This document shows, in pieces, positions 9,718 through 17,690 of a DNA stretch of 64,000 bases (position 1 is its first letter; each line of letters starts with the position of its first letter). Location: NCBI GenBank assembly GCA_947382485.1, contig CANCYS010000002.1:124001-188000 (forward strand), read 5' to 3'. The translations under genes and the position numbers were made by a program. The notes under the pieces were generated by a model. It had not been told where the DNA came from. It saw only the letters and a list, made by a program, of their open reading frames with translations, and made no database searches. The stretch comes from an uncultured Clostridia bacterium (GTDB lineage Bacteria; Bacillota; Clostridia; Christensenellales; UBA1242).

Positions 9718-11007
9718 ATGACCTTTTTGTATATTTTGCTTGCATTAGTTGTTTTGCTTGTGCTCATAACTGTCCATGAATTTGGTCATTATTGCGCAGG
9801 TAAAATTTTAGGTTTTAAAATCAATGAATTTGCAATTGGTTTTGGACCAGCAATTTTTAAAAGAGTTAATAAAAAAACAAGTGAACAATTTTCAATTAGA
9901 ATTCTGCCACTTGGTGGCTTTTGTGCTTTTGAAGGTGAAGATGAAGCAGGAAATGAAAATCCAGGTTCATTCAACACAATGCCTGCATGGAAAAGATTGA
10001 TTGTTCTTCTTTCAGGTGTAGGGTTCAACTTTTTGTTTGGTGTGCTTGCAGCCGTAATATATTTGCTTGTCAGTGGTTATGCAACACCAATTGTTTCTGC
10101 AACAATAAAGCCAGGCAGTGAAACAACCCTTCAAACAAACGATGTCATCATGGCTGTTGATGGCAAAAAAATTGAAGCATATCGTTCATTTAATGATTTA
10201 ATGGCAAAATATAAAGAAGGTCAAGATGTGACCTTAACTGTTAATCGTGATGGACAAATTATTGAAATTACAACATCAAAAGAAAAATATGACCCATTTT
10301 ATTTCATTGCAAACACCAGTAAATTTGAAAATAAAATTTTTGATGAAAATGGCGTTGCAATTCCAATGGATAAATTCATAAATGATATTGTCAGAATTAA
10401 AACCATCGACGAAAAAGGCGAAAGCGTTGGCAAAGGTTCATCACTTGTTTCACATTTTTCAAATGTATATAAAAATGCTGAAAAAACTGAGCATTACACG
10501 GCCGAAGATATAACTGCATTAATAACTGATGGAACAATTTCTTACGCATCAAGCTATGCAAATCTTGGAATGGTGTATTCATACACTGGACAAAGTTATT
10601 CATTCTTTGAAGCAATAGTCAAAGCATGGCCATTCTGTTTCTATCTTTGTGGACTCATATTATCATCACTTGCAGGTTTGTTTACTGGTGCAACATCGGT
10701 TTCAGATCTTGGTGGAACAGTCACAGCAATTTCTCAAATTGCACAAGTTAGTTCATGGGGAATTGAATCATTCTTGTTATTGCTTCCACTTCTGGCAATG
10801 AACCTTGCACTGTTTAACATTTTGCCAATACCAGCACTTGATGGTGCGAAATGTGTGTTTGTTGCAATTGAAATGATATTCCGCAAACCAGTCAATCGAA
10901 AGGTTGAAGGTTGGATACACACAATAGGATTGTTTGTTCTGCTGGGGCTTGTAATTTTCCTAGACATTTATCATTTTGCTTTTGCCTCGTGCCTGTTGCT
11001 TTCTTAA
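9718..11007 (+). CDS. rseP: RseP-type site-2 intramembrane zinc protease
   Basis: A 429-residue membrane protease that cuts transmembrane anti-sigma factors and signal-peptide remnants. The first membrane segment carries the zinc motif HEFGH (H20, E21, H24); a PDZ domain follows (about residues 125-190, ATIKPGSETTLQTNDVIMAVDGKKI), and the third zinc ligand is in LFNILPIPALDGAK near residue 370. The stretch between the PDZ domain and the last membrane segments (about 200-290) is longer than usual and charged. ATG 9718 has AAGGAG upstream. The downstream gene has its own promoter inside the rseP coding end. Confidence 0.95.
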   Translation: MTFLYILLALVVLLVLITVHEFGHYCAGKILGFKINEFAIGFGPAIFKRVNKKTSEQFSIRILPLGGFCAFEGEDEAGNENPGSFNTMPAWKRLIVLLSGVGFNFLFGVLAAVIYLLVSGYATPIVSATIKPGSETTLQTNDVIMAVDGKKIEAYRSFNDLMAKYKEGQDVTLTVNRDGQIIEITTSKEKYDPFYFIANTSKFENKIFDENGVAIPMDKFINDIVRIKTIDEKGESVGKGSSLVSHFSNVYKNAEKTEHYTAEDITALITDGTISYASSYANLGMVYSYTGQSYSFFEAIVKAWPFCFYLCGLILSSLAGLFTGATSVSDLGGTVTAISQIAQVSSWGIESFLLLLPLLAMNLALFNILPIPALDGAKCVFVAIEMIFRKPVNRKVEGWIHTIGLFVLLGLVIFLDIYHFAFASCLLLS

Positions 11008-11031
11008 AATTAATGCGGTATAATTTAAACT
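10996..11031 (+). promoter_or_regulatory. Promoter giving a probable leaderless mRNA for the PolC-like gene
   Basis: TTGCTT (10996-11001), 17 bp, TATAAT (11019-11024), then 7 bases to ATG 11032. Transcription would begin at or next to the A of the start codon. No Shine-Dalgarno sequence is present. Confidence 0.65.
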
Positions 11032-12627
11032 ATGGAAACTGAATTACTAATAGATAAAATTAATGAATTTACAAATAATGAATATAAATTTGAACTTAAA
11101 TCTGCTGTGCTTGATACATCAGCAGATTTTTGTGTGATTGAAATTTATTATCGTGATGGAATTTTGCTTCAAATTCAGAATAAACAAGAATTTGAAACAT
11201 ATATGGAAAGCATTTTACCATCAAGGTTTAAATATGAATTTAAGTTTGTTAAAAAGTTTATTAGTGAAGAGCGAATATTTGATGACCTCAAAGTTTTTAT
11301 GAAAAGAAATTTTCCTTCAATATTTTATAAAATTGATTCAGTTTTGCTTTTAGATGATGTTTATAAAATCAGTTTAATAATTGATGAAATAACTTTTGAG
11401 CATGCAAAAAAGAAAAGAGTAAATGAAAAAGTTTGTGAATATTTCAAATCTAATTTTGAAGATAAAAACTTTGATTGTGAACTTAAAATGGGACAGGTTT
11501 TTAATGCTGAAATTCAAGAAAATCAGGAAGATTTTGAAGAAGATGATTCAGACATGATGAGCCTGCGAAAAATTGAGGTTTCAGAAATTATTGAGTTTGT
11601 AGGTGAAAAAATTGAACAAACAGCGGATTATATTAAAGATAAAATTTCACCAGAAGAAAATGTTGTTATTTGTGGAAAAATAAAAAATATAAAGAGCATA
11701 GTTATAAAGAATAAAAAACAAGAAGAAAGTTCTGAAAAATCAGCTAAAAAACCTAAAAATGATACTGATGAAAAATATGAGAAAAAACTTTATAAATGGA
11801 TATTAGAAGATTTCACAGGAAACGTAAGTTGTTTATTCATGTCAAATAAATCAAATCAGTCGAAACTTGAAAAACTTGAAGCAGGATCAGAAATTTTGGT
11901 TCGTGGAAATCTTGCAGAAGATAAATTTGACAATGGTTTAAGTTTATCAGTAAAAGATATTTGTTATTGTAAACTTCCAGAAAATTTTGAAGAGGTCATT
12001 GTATATCACAAAGAAAAATCAAAATACGAATTTGTTAAGCCTGAAAGAATTGTCACTTATCATCAAAACACACTTCTTGGGGAAGAAAGTGCAGATGTCT
12101 GTGATTATTTAAAAAATAATAAATTTGTATGCTACGATTTGGAAACAACTGGTCTAAGTTATGAGTCTGGCGACAGAATGATTGAAATTGGAGCAGTTAA
12201 GATAGAAAACGGAAAAATAACAGAAAATTTTGCTACATTTGTTAATCCTGAAAAACATATTCCTGAAAAATCCACTGAGATAAATGGAATAACAGACGAC
12301 GATGTTAAAGATGCACCAAAAGATTATGAGGCACTTCAAGATTTTTATAAATTTACCCGTGATTGTATAATCATTGGCTATAACAACAATTCATTTGATG
12401 ATATCTTTTTGATTGGTCAATCAAGAAGGTGTAGATGGAATTTTGACAATAAAACAAATGATGTATATAAAATTGCACACAAAAACATTAAGGGCTTAAA
12501 AAATTATAAACTTGGAACTGTTGCAAAAGCAATGGGTGTTGTGCTTGATAATGCACATAGGGCATGGTATGATGCACTTGCAACTGCTGAAATATTTTTA
12601 AAACTTGCAAAATATGTCGATGAATAA
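11032..12627 (+). CDS. PolC-like protein reduced to N-terminal domain, OB fold and DEDDh exonuclease
   Basis: A 531-residue protein that looks like the front third of the Gram-positive replicative polymerase PolC. Residues ~1-200 resemble the PolC N-terminal domain; ~215-325 form an OB fold (VVICGKIKN ... WILEDFTGNVSCLFM ... VRGNLAEDKFDNGLSL); ~363-530 are a 3'-5' exonuclease with FVCYDLETTG (Exo I), IIGYNNNSFDDIFLI (Exo II) and HRAWYDALATAEIF (Exo III, DEDDh type). The PHP domain and the whole polymerase palm-fingers are missing, and no polymerase frame follows downstream. It lies between rseP and rimP, where full polC is found in many Firmicutes. A stand-alone proofreading or repair nuclease is likely. 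Confidence 0.85.
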   Translation: METELLIDKINEFTNNEYKFELKSAVLDTSADFCVIEIYYRDGILLQIQNKQEFETYMESILPSRFKYEFKFVKKFISEERIFDDLKVFMKRNFPSIFYKIDSVLLLDDVYKISLIIDEITFEHAKKKRVNEKVCEYFKSNFEDKNFDCELKMGQVFNAEIQENQEDFEEDDSDMMSLRKIEVSEIIEFVGEKIEQTADYIKDKISPEENVVICGKIKNIKSIVIKNKKQEESSEKSAKKPKNDTDEKYEKKLYKWILEDFTGNVSCLFMSNKSNQSKLEKLEAGSEILVRGNLAEDKFDNGLSLSVKDICYCKLPENFEEVIVYHKEKSKYEFVKPERIVTYHQNTLLGEESADVCDYLKNNKFVCYDLETTGLSYESGDRMIEIGAVKIENGKITENFATFVNPEKHIPEKSTEINGITDDDVKDAPKDYEALQDFYKFTRDCIIIGYNNNSFDDIFLIGQSRRCRWNFDNKTNDVYKIAHKNIKGLKNYKLGTVAKAMGVVLDNAHRAWYDALATAEIFLKLAKYVDE

Positions 12628-12682: not shown

Positions 12683-12768
12683 TTGCATTTTAATATTTTT
12701 AGTTGTATAATAAACATATATGATAGCTTGAATTTAGGAGTGGCAAACAGCCACTCCTAAATTTTGTA
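12683..12768 (+). promoter_or_regulatory. rimP-nusA operon promoter followed at once by a terminator-like hairpin
   Basis: TTGCAT (12683-12688), 17 bp, TATAAT (12706-12711) place +1 near 12718. A perfect 14-bp hairpin AATTTAGGAGTGGC/GCCACTCCTAAATT (12731-12744 with 12750-12763) then occurs, followed by TTTTG. It lies between +1 and the rimP ribosome-binding site (12779), so it is best read as an attenuator or processing element of the operon leader rather than the terminator of the preceding gene, although it could be the latter. Confidence 0.7.
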
Positions 12769-12788: not shown

Positions 12789-13247
12789 ATGTCAAAAATA
12801 GCAGATAGTGTAAAGGAATTTTTAAGCCCAATAGTTGAAAATTTGGGATATAAAATTGTTGATGTTGAGTTTGCAAAAAAATATAATGGCGATAATTTAA
12901 CTGTATTCATTGATAAAGCGGGTGGAATCAAAATTGAAGATTGTGAACTTGTTCACAAAACCATTGATCAGCCACTTGATGAACTCAATCCAACAAATGA
13001 CAAACCATACACTTTGAATGTTTCAAGCCCAGGTCTTGATAGGCCACTTAAAACTGACGATGATTTTGAAATAAACCTTAATGAAATTTTAGAAGTAAAA
13101 CTTTTTCAAGCTATAAACAAACAAAAAGTTTTTGTTGGAACACTATCAAGTTTCAATAAAGATTGCATAGTTTTGCAAGTTAATGAAGACGAAATCACAA
13201 TTGATAGAAAACTAATTTCAAAAGCAACAAAATATATAGATTTTTAG
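12789..13247 (+). CDS. rimP: Ribosome maturation factor RimP
   Basis: A 152-residue two-domain protein needed for late 30S assembly. Conserved blocks: PIVENLGYKIVDVEFAKK, LTVFIDKAGGIKIEDCELVHKTIDQPLDE and YTLNVSSPGLDRPLKTDDDF, with a C-terminal Sm-like beta barrel (KVFVGTLSSFNKDCIVLQVN). It is the first gene of the rimP-nusA-rnpM-ylxQ-infB cluster, the standard bacterial order, with nusA ten bases downstream. TAGGAG precedes ATG 12789. Confidence 0.97.
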   Translation: MSKIADSVKEFLSPIVENLGYKIVDVEFAKKYNGDNLTVFIDKAGGIKIEDCELVHKTIDQPLDELNPTNDKPYTLNVSSPGLDRPLKTDDDFEINLNEILEVKLFQAINKQKVFVGTLSSFNKDCIVLQVNEDEITIDRKLISKATKYIDF

Positions 13248-14676: not shown

Positions 14677-14968
14677 AGCATATATTGGTTTTGCTAAAAA
14701 AAGTAGACAAATCACTTTTGGTGTTGATGATATAATAAAACTCAAAAATGCAAAAGTTATAATTGTTTCAGATAGTCTTGGAGAATCAAGTATGAAAAAA
14801 GTTAAAAACTATTCTGAAACAAAAAAAATTGAAATGCTTTGCCTTAAAAGTGAAGATTTCAAAAATTTAGAAAACGAGAGTATTAAAGCCATTGCCATAA
14901 CAGATAAGGGATTGGCTGATGCTATAAAAATTAATTTGACCACGAGTCTTGGAGGAAAAGTTGAGTAA
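14651..14968 (+). CDS. L7Ae/L30e-family ribosomal protein, YlxQ-like
   Basis: A 105-residue protein of the L7Ae/L30e/S12e fold: IGFAKKSRQITFGVDDIIK, AKVIIVSDSLGESSMKKVKNYSE, and AIAITDKGLADAIK, which are the K-turn-binding strand-helix elements. Bacillus YlxQ has the same position between ylxR and infB and binds structured RNA. The start at 14651 is taken because it is preceded by GAGGAG at the end of ylxR and overlaps that gene by 26 bases; the longer frame from 14618 adds non-homologous residues. Its end overlaps the infB start. Confidence 0.88.
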   Translation: MNSVLSKIKAYIGFAKKSRQITFGVDDIIKLKNAKVIIVSDSLGESSMKKVKNYSETKKIEMLCLKSEDFKNLENESIKAIAITDKGLADAIKINLTTSLGGKVE

Positions 14969-17690
14969 AGTAGAAAATAATATGGTAGATTTTTCAAATA
15001 TCAGAGATTTACAAAACTTAATCAAAACAAACGGAATTTCTGTGCTTGCAATGAACATGAAGTCTTTTAAACAAAGGCTTAGTGTTGTTGGTGGCAAAAT
15101 TGATGAAATTAAGAAAAATAAAGAAATTGAAGCAAAAAAATCTGCTGAAATTGAAGCTAAAAAAGTTGAGGTTGTAAAACCAGTAGAAGAAAAGAAAGTA
15201 GTTGAAGTTAAAGCAAGTGTGCCACAACAAAAGCCTGCTCAGTTCAACAATCATACTCAGCAAAATAGTAACCAAGATTTCAGAAGAAATAATGGCTATC
15301 AAGGTGGAAACTACCAAAATAGAAATGGAAACAACTATCAAGGCAATGGTCAAAATGGACAAAGATTTGAGCGTAATGGTTCAAATAATTTTAGAAATGG
15401 AAACAATGTAAACAGAAATGGTTATGGCAACCAAAATGGTGGTTATCAAGGCGGAAATTATCAAAATAGAAATGGAAACAACTATCAAGGTAATGGTCAA
15501 AATGGTGGCTATCAAAATAGAAATTTAAGATTTAATCCGACTGGCGAAAGAAGATTTGACAACAATCAAAATGGCGGTCAGGGTTCATATAATGGTTCTT
15601 TTGGAAGAAATCAACATCAACAAGGTTCAAATAATGGACAATTCCAAAGACGTCCAGCAGGTGCAGCTGGCACAGGCTTTGGTCCAAGACTTCCAAAACC
15701 AACAGAAAGTTTTGATGCAAGTTCTCTTGCAAGAAACAATCGTTCAATGCCTCAAAAGAAAAAGAACGATTATGGTAAGGGCGGAGAAGAAAAGAAGGCA
15801 TTAAATAAAAAAGCACTTATCATGCGTGGATATGTTGATGAAAATGGTGTTGAAAGTGAACTTAACGATCAAATCACAGTTAGAAGACATAACAAGAGAG
15901 TTAAAGAAGAAGCACCAGTTCAAAGAATAATTCAAAAAATTGACCATGCTGTAATCACAACAGATAATTTAACTGTTAAAATTTTAGCAGAAACAATTGG
16001 AAAATCAGTTCCAGAACTCATGAGCAAATTTTTGCTTCTTGGAATGATGGTAAACATAAACAGCAACATTGATTATGATTCAGCAGAACTTGTTGCTTCT
16101 GAATTTGGAATAACACTTGAAAGAAAAGTTGAAAAATCATTTGAAGAAAAACTTGCTGAAAACTATAAAAATGTTTCAGATGATGAAAAAGATTTGGTTA
16201 AGCGTCCAGCAGTTGTCTGCGTAATGGGTCACGTTGACCATGGTAAAACTTCACTTCTTGATAGAATTAGAAAAACAAATGTTGTAAGTGGCGAAGCAGG
16301 TGGAATCACTCAAAGCATTGGTGCTTACACAATTAACCTTAATGGTGAAGATATCACATTCATCGACACACCAGGACACGAAGCATTCACAGCAATGCGT
16401 GAAAGAGGTGCAAAACTCACTGACATTGCAATCTTGGTTGTTGCAGCAGATGATGGTGTTATGCCTCAAACTGTTGAATCAATCAAACAAATCAGACAAG
16501 CAAATGTTCCAATGATTGTTGCAATCAATAAAATTGATGTGCCAAAAGCAAACATTGAAAATGTAAAAACACAACTTGCAACTTATGATGTTCTTCCAGA
16601 AGAATGGGGTGGCGATGCAATATTAGTTCCAATTTCTGCAAAACATGGACAAAATATTGATAAACTTCTTGAAATGGTTCTTTTTGTTGCTGAATATCAA
16701 AACTTAAAAGCAAATCCAAAAAGACAGGCTTCTGGTTCAATCATTGAAGCAAAACTTGACAAGGGCGTTGGTGCAGTTGCAACTGTTTTGGTTCAAAACG
16801 GAACACTTAAAGTTGGAGATTATGTCGTTGTTGGAACATGTACTGGTAAAATCAGGGCAATGACCAATGATAAACTTGAAAAAATTAGAAGTGCAGGTCC
16901 TTCAATGCCTGTTCAAATCATGGGACTTAGTGGTGTTCCAAATGCTGGTGATGAACTTTTCGTTGTTGATGAAAAGATGAGCAGACAAGTTGCCTTAGAG
17001 CGTCAAAACACAGCAAAAGTAAACATGATTAAGAGTGCAGACCTTTCAATTGAAAATATGATGAATAAAATTGCTGATAGCAACTTCAAAGATTTCAATG
17101 TCATTGTCAAAGCAGATGTTCAAGGTTCAGTTGAAGCATTGAAAAATTCACTTCTTGCTGTTCAAAACGAAGAAGTTAAAGTTAGATTCGTTAGCGGAAG
17201 TGCTGGTGCAATCAATGAAAACGATGTTAGTTTGGCTCAGGCTTCAAATTCACTTATCATTGCATTTAACACAAAAACAGATTTCAAAGCAAAAGTGCTT
17301 GCAGATAAATATAAAGTTGAAATCAAAAACTCAAAAGTTATTTATGAAGTTTTGGATTATGTTACTGAAAGAATCAATAAAATGGTAACACCAAAATATA
17401 AAGAAATCATAACAGGTCATGCTGAAATTAGAGCAACATTTAAGGCAAGTAAAATTGGTCTTATTGCAGGAACTTATGTTACTGATGGAAGAATTTCAAG
17501 AGGTAATAAAGTTAGAATTTTCAGAAATGATGAAAAGATTTATGAAGGTGAAATTTCAACACTTCAAAGAGAAAAGAATGAAGCAAAAGATGTTGATGCA
17601 GGATTTGAATGTGGTGTTACATTTAAAGATTTCACAAATTTTGTTGTTGGTGACACCTTTGAAACTTACAATTTAGAAAGAATAAATTAG
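14961..17690 (+). CDS. infB: Translation initiation factor IF-2
   Basis: The GTPase that delivers initiator tRNA to the ribosome. From TTG 14961 (GGAGGA upstream, overlapping the ylxQ stop) it is 909 residues. Residues ~1-95 include an IF2N-like, Lys/Glu-rich part; ~97-250 are a low-complexity Asn/Gly/Gln/Arg region with two exact-length repeats; ~320-390 form the second IF2N region; the GTPase follows with GHVDHGKTS at ~423, DTPGHE and NKID; then domains II-IV ([27 protein letters not shown]). The core is standard. ATG 14982 is an alternative start. The Asn-rich linker is unusual among IF-2 proteins. Confidence 0.97.
15294..15505 (+). repeat. Two 65-bp direct repeats inside infB
   Basis: Copies at 15294-15358 and 15441-15505 are nearly identical, differing mainly at third codon positions, and are offset by 147 bp (49 codons). 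Each encodes a unit starting [14 protein letters not shown]. Fragments of the same unit recur nearby. In-frame tandem duplication followed by drift is the likely origin. Confidence 0.9.

Follow-up and report, generated by a model that had tools for sequence, protein, structure and literature searches.

A polymerase-less remnant of PolC at the polC locus in a clade of uncultured Clostridia

The gene described here lies in the window, the whole 64,000-nucleotide stretch of DNA that was analyzed, and forms a single open reading frame with an ATG start that encodes 531 amino acids plus a stop codon (Table 1). Pfam recognized an exonuclease domain at residues 366-522 and an OB fold at residues 250-310, and returned no match to a PHP or Pol III alpha domain or to a helicase part of the DinG type. 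The top curated NCBI family was PolC, matching the exonuclease part only, and the nearest PDB sequences to the exonuclease were 2p1j (Thermotoga PolC exonuclease) and 9qpc (full PolC, cryo-EM). An AlphaFold2 model of the protein had a mean pLDDT of 87, with high values on the N-terminal domain (NTD), the OB fold and the exonuclease, and its best match in the PDB was again PolC 9qpc (E 3.9e-18 over 400 columns). The N-terminus of PolC comprises two KH-like or tau-domain-V-like subdomains, NI and NII. Single-sequence searches with Pfam and phmmer gave no match to a PolC-like NTD, so that profile-profile comparison was needed; one relative matches PF11490 (DNA_pol3_a_NII) with an E value of 0.004.

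Table 1. Features of the reduced polC gene in the window, its neighbors, and related genes in other genomes (L numbers denote loci outside the window)
Feature	Location	Strand	Basis or remark
rseP, upstream neighbor	9718..11007	+	precedes full polC in relatives as well
Reduced PolC (NTD-OB-linker-exonuclease)	11032..12627	+	ORF; synteny with full polC; profile match to PolC
PolC-type N-terminal domain, residues ~1-180	11032..11571	+	hhalign, NTD alone, E 2e-10; AF2 pLDDT ~90
OB fold, residues ~205-314	11644..11973	+	PF01336, E 4e-6; hhalign, OB alone, E 5e-13
Linker in place of PolC PHP-N; Y332, P337 and Q345 conserved	11974..12111	+	alignment of 69 relatives
Clamp-binding-motif-like QNTLL, residues 345-349; family consensus QxxLF	12064..12078	+	Q in 67/69, QxxLF in 39/69
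PolC-type DEDDh 3'-5' exonuclease domain with intact catalytic residues	12115..12615	+	PF00929, E 8.5e-37; PDB matches
rimP, downstream neighbor	12789..13247	+	follows full polC in relatives as well
NTD-OB-only or NII-OB-only remnant, exonuclease gone	L294 3577-4605	-	adjoining rseP/cdsA
NTD-OB-only or NII-OB-only remnant, exonuclease gone	L295 3518-4453	-	adjoining rseP/cdsA
NTD-OB-only or NII-OB-only remnant, exonuclease gone	L296 3451-4395	+	adjoining rseP/cdsA
NTD-OB-only or NII-OB-only remnant, exonuclease gone	L297 2482-3132	+	adjoining rseP/cdsA
NTD-OB-only or NII-OB-only remnant, exonuclease gone	L298 2615-3289	+	adjoining rseP/cdsA
Full-length reduced PolC, active site of the exonuclease destroyed (G077)	L080 5244-6878	-	
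Full-length reduced PolC, active site of the exonuclease destroyed (G074)	L299 3775-5289	-	
DnaX, 385 aa, gamma-like, without tau C-terminal region	L349 1810-2964	-	complete relative G028; beside ybaB, recR

The surroundings of the gene are those of polC. The order frr-uppS-cdsA-rseP, then either polC or the reduced gene, then rimP-nusA-ylxR-infB, is common to both kinds of genome, and in relatives of the same order with full-length PolC (L064, L065, L066, L067, L071) polC fills the same slot before rimP-nusA-ylxR-infB. The initial annotation had taken the interval between rseP and rimP to be the polC slot, and this synteny confirms it; the full-polC relatives have a further gene-sized gap between rseP and polC. 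Its reading of a promoter in the gap before rimP is corrected here: no promoter was scored in these 161 bp, where a weak TTGCAT-17-TATAAT can be picked out by eye at 12683-12711. The same gap contains a perfect 9-bp hairpin, AGGAGTGGC-AAACA-GCCACTCCT, at 12736-12758, which has no Rfam match, a tRNA being the sole Rfam match across the window. A second promoter-like sequence seen by eye, TTGCTT-17-TATAAT at 10996-11032, falls under the scan threshold; its -10 element ends 7 bases before the ATG of the reduced gene, and given this distance the transcript could be leaderless. Farther downstream, at 14949-15900, the N-terminal region of IF-2 (infB) is long and of low complexity, rich in Asn, Gly and Gln with NYQNRNGN-like repeats.

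To relate the protein to PolC, a profile of 69 reduced proteins was compared by hhalign with one of 17 full-length PolCs, all from the order of the window. The whole protein aligned collinearly (E 1.5e-80), and the NTD and the OB fold each matched when taken alone. What differs is that the PHP-N of about 90 residues between the OB fold and the exonuclease of PolC is absent, and that nothing follows the exonuclease. Together with the Pfam results, this comparison agrees with the initial annotation, which had described a PolC-like N-terminus, an OB fold and a complete DEDDh exonuclease without PHP or polymerase. The exonuclease is the most conserved part of the 69 proteins (mean entropy 1.7 bits; the NTD has 2.9), and its catalytic residues D369, E371, D456, H509 and D514 are invariant in 69/69.

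In a tree of exonuclease domains, 39 of 40 reduced proteins formed one clade among the PolC exonucleases (support 88), near PolC and apart from DinG, Cas-associated DEDDh proteins and DnaQ, with weak support for the deep branches. The alignment of 165 columns held too little signal for AU tests to tell nesting inside PolC from a position beside it. What settles descent from PolC is the synteny together with the collinear NTD-OB region, and not nesting in this tree. Because position, domain order and sequence agree, the reduced gene is almost certainly orthologous to polC by descent. That the polC slot was taken over by a DnaQ- or DinG-like exonuclease gene, or that an assembly error hides a full PolC, is extremely improbable as far as draft genomes allow a judgment: the exonuclease domain by itself does resemble DinG and DnaQ, but the NTD and OB fold each match those of PolC, in order, and 77 separate genomes have reduced forms without a full PolC. 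A CRISPR or defense association, raised by PADLOC matches to DEDDh proteins, was rejected, as the similarity is confined to the exonuclease and the neighbors are housekeeping genes. A phage origin was likewise set aside; the phage matches listed cover the OB-exonuclease or exonuclease part only, none of them 80% of the protein.

We then examined the replicase genes. The genome of the window is a 941-kb draft, 85% complete, in which no full-length PolC was found. It encodes one Pol III alpha, of the DnaE type with an intact N-terminal PHP domain, adjoining a whiA-like gene; the DnaN clamp is present, and the single DEDDh exonuclease is the reduced PolC itself. DnaE is also the sole Pol III alpha in all PolC-less relatives examined. 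Gene content therefore shows that DnaE1 is the sole remaining replicase after the loss of PolC, as foreseen in the initial annotation, which had suggested that the replicative role passed to a DnaE-type enzyme. The nine-residue PHP signature of DnaE1, HHDHEHCDH, is complete in all 35 readable sequences, with and without PolC. This rules out that DnaE lost PHP proofreading and hence needs the remnant; since the PHP site is intact, the reduced PolC is not strictly needed for proofreading. In the DnaE tree, PolC-less families other than f1 have end branches (many about 0.75-1.2) that for the most part exceed those of PolC-bearing genomes (about 0.5-0.7), as if DnaE1 had been evolving faster after the takeover.

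Across the order, we sampled 99 genomes from 33 families. Full PolC was present in 19 and a reduced form only in 77, and no genome had both. The NTD-OB-exonuclease form accounted for 69 genomes; one further genome (G087) has an NTD-exonuclease form without OB, two (G074, G077) a reduced form with a catalytically dead exonuclease, three (G013, G052, G021) the NTD-OB only, and two (G010, G050) an NII-OB piece of about 220 amino acids. Neither PolC nor a remnant was detectable in the other three (G046, G051, G096). The DnaE tree separates genomes with PolC from those with reduced forms by one change, a split with a support of 100. The clade genomes are drafts that, so far as is apparent, derive from environmental DNA. 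A gene missing from any one of them may therefore reflect an assembly gap, which leaves the pattern across the clade unaffected. The DnaE of G096 (family f11) groups with that of the PolC-bearing G068, yet no PolC or remnant was found in it; judged from this placement, G096 is a case of either independent PolC loss or a draft gap.

No reduced form was found outside the order in class-wide (392 genomes) and phylum-wide (299 genomes) samples. There, NTD-OB regions lie within ORFs of PolC length, with one exception among those listed, an ORF of 461 amino acids in G479 that we interpret as a contig fragment. Among named contigs, those of Candidatus Coproplasma and Candidatus Gallimonas are examples with the reduced form, and full PolC is present on a Christensenella contig; these names point to the GTDB order Christensenellales.

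The linker that stands where PHP-N was is about 45 residues long and mostly variable, with a conserved Y-x-x-V-x-P-x(7)-Q-x-x-L-F immediately ahead of the exonuclease. Over about 13 families, Y332 is retained in 65, P337 in 67 and Q345 in 67 of the 69 proteins. QxxLF is found at this column in 39 of them and at no other place among 35,868 positions (the G015 and G089 proteins have the canonical QATLF), and the looser pattern Q..[LIM][FLM] in 58, against a background rate of 0.0005. In the AlphaFold2 model, the preceding Y-V-P stretch has high confidence and the motif itself lies in a low-confidence loop (residues 341-350). The motif is degenerate in the genus of the window, reading QNTLL in the window protein and QDDLL, QDTLM and QDDLT in its sisters, and family f6 has no Q there. 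The clamp motif of E. coli MutS is QMSLL. By this analogy, binding of QNTLL to the clamp is possible and would likely be weaker, and the degenerate forms of this genus may bind the clamp weakly or not at all.

QxxLF is a general bacterial clamp-binding motif, of which B. subtilis PolC carries a copy at its C-terminus (PMC12309361). Most full PolCs of the order likewise have QxxLF at the extreme C-terminus, and a C-terminal clamp motif is absent from the reduced protein. As the C-terminal motif went with the polymerase, it looks as though the reduced protein lost one clamp motif and acquired a second in the linker.

Reduction has gone further in some lineages. Some genera are without the linker and exonuclease, the ORF stopping right after the OB fold and adjoining rseP or cdsA, and no DEDDh exonuclease of any kind was found in G013 and G021. 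The notion that some f1 genomes simply have no such gene was discarded, as five carry NTD-OB-only forms instead. In G077 and G074, HVNST and YIRSL stand where DxET is expected, and a QMNF/QLSF-like linker motif is retained. Because several genera keep NTD-OB without the exonuclease, this region probably has a second, nuclease-independent role. Neither this dispensability of the exonuclease in some sublineages nor the PHP proofreading site that DnaE retains was noted in the initial annotation. The search for DnaX gave the gamma-like protein of G028 (Table 1), no match over the cut-off in the draft genome of the window, and nothing in the stretches examined of a PolC-bearing relative.

We propose the following history and mechanism. 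At the root of a large clade within the order, PolC lost PHP-N, PHP-C, the polymerase and the C-terminal clamp motif once, while the NTD, the OB fold and the DEDDh exonuclease stayed and a new QxxLF arose in the linker that joins the last two (the number of steps is our reconstruction). DnaE1 became the only Pol III alpha, as gene content shows. The remnant would then work in trans, with its linker motif binding the DnaN clamp, the OB fold or NTD attached to single-stranded DNA or to a partner in the replisome, and the DEDDh domain trimming mismatched 3' ends for DnaE1 beside the PHP site of DnaE1 itself. From the sequences, we consider it reasonably probable that reduced PolC is such a clamp-tethered trans 3'-5' exonuclease serving DnaE1, a reading that agrees with the trans-acting proofreader suggested in the initial annotation and that the clamp motif in the linker strengthens. 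Little functional change would be needed for this role, since in B. subtilis the PolC exonuclease reportedly complements DnaE3 in trans (PMC12926913). Counting against it are the loss of the exonuclease in three genera, its inactivation in G074 and G077, the lack of a detectable remnant in G046, the intact PHP of DnaE1, and the degenerate or Q-less linker motifs described above.

The intact PHP site, which already covers replicative proofreading, would also suit a clamp-bound repair nuclease that acts on gaps, recombination intermediates or 3' flaps outside replicative proofreading, and as the sole DEDDh exonuclease of its own genome the remnant could serve repair as well. We judge this unlikely: the gene shows no linkage to repair genes but sits in a translation and envelope operon inherited from polC, and parsimony favors the ancestral proofreading role. 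The remnant might also be a decaying vestige of polC heading for loss, as the stepwise series of reductions and the complete absence in G046 could suggest; an open frame, invariant DEDDh residues and a linker motif nearly invariant over some 13 families are unlike decay, and make this very improbable.

The truncated forms bear on a different possibility, that the remnant serves chiefly as a structural adaptor in the replisome (the NTD-OB, plus the clamp motif where present) and its exonuclease a dispensable passenger. The NTD-OB-only and NII-OB ORFs near rseP or cdsA and the two families that retain a dead exonuclease argue for it, as do the DnaX of G028, which has no tau C-terminal part, and the relatedness of PolC NI and NII to domain V of tau (PMC12926913). 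Against this, no other part of the protein is nearly as conserved as the exonuclease, and its five catalytic residues never vary in 69 proteins; we judge the adaptor reading quite unlikely. A related idea, which we offer only tentatively, is that the conserved core of the remnant is the NTD-OB and not the nuclease, the NTD-OB being a tau-domain-V-like adaptor that would tie DnaE1, clamp and DNA together where DnaX has lost the tau tail. If true, the adaptor function of PolC would be separable from both polymerase and exonuclease, and the genomes of this order would have caught a stepwise reduction from PolC through NTD-OB-exonuclease and NTD-OB to NII-OB.

A large group of uncultured gut Clostridia has gone back to DnaE1 alone while keeping the non-polymerase parts of PolC and acquiring a putative new clamp motif. 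The clade offers a natural experiment on the roles of the NTD, OB fold and exonuclease of PolC once the polymerase is gone and on the way in which one of two replicases can be retired, and it suggests how a separate proofreading subunit could be derived from PolC. As small soluble proteins, reduced PolCs would allow direct tests of NTD-OB function.

Surveys of complete genomes distinguish three sets of Pol III alpha, namely DnaE1 alone, PolC with DnaE1, and PolC with DnaE3 (PMC12926913), and C-family surveys assign PolC with DnaE1 to the Clostridia (PMC3919608, PMC12926913). We found no description of a standalone exonuclease derived from PolC in these surveys or in the other literature searched, which also yielded no C-family example of a nuclease that outlives its polymerase. 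Compared with full-length PolC, the reduced protein shares the locus, the NTD-OB-exonuclease order and the PolC-type DEDDh exonuclease; it differs in having no PHP, polymerase or C-terminal clamp motif and in having gained an internal QxxLF. The epsilon subunit of E. coli Pol III (DnaQ) is likewise a separate DEDDh 3'-5' exonuclease with a clamp motif in an adjacent flexible stretch (QTSMAF, residues 182-187; PMC4478557). However, this motif is C-terminal of the exonuclease in epsilon and the putative one of reduced PolC is N-terminal of it, and epsilon has neither NTD nor OB and is not derived from PolC. The mycobacterial DnaQ-like proofreader also places a DEDDh exonuclease beside an active PHP in a DnaE1-only system (PMC12926913), but its descent and architecture are different. 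A nuclease outlives its polymerase in PolX-like proteins without the polymerase region and in standalone Pol I 5'-3' exonucleases as well (PMC12926913), although these involve other polymerase families and other nucleases. The idea of a nuclease outliving its polymerase is therefore known, whereas a clade-wide case in the C family, with an apparently relocated clamp motif, is a new form of it.
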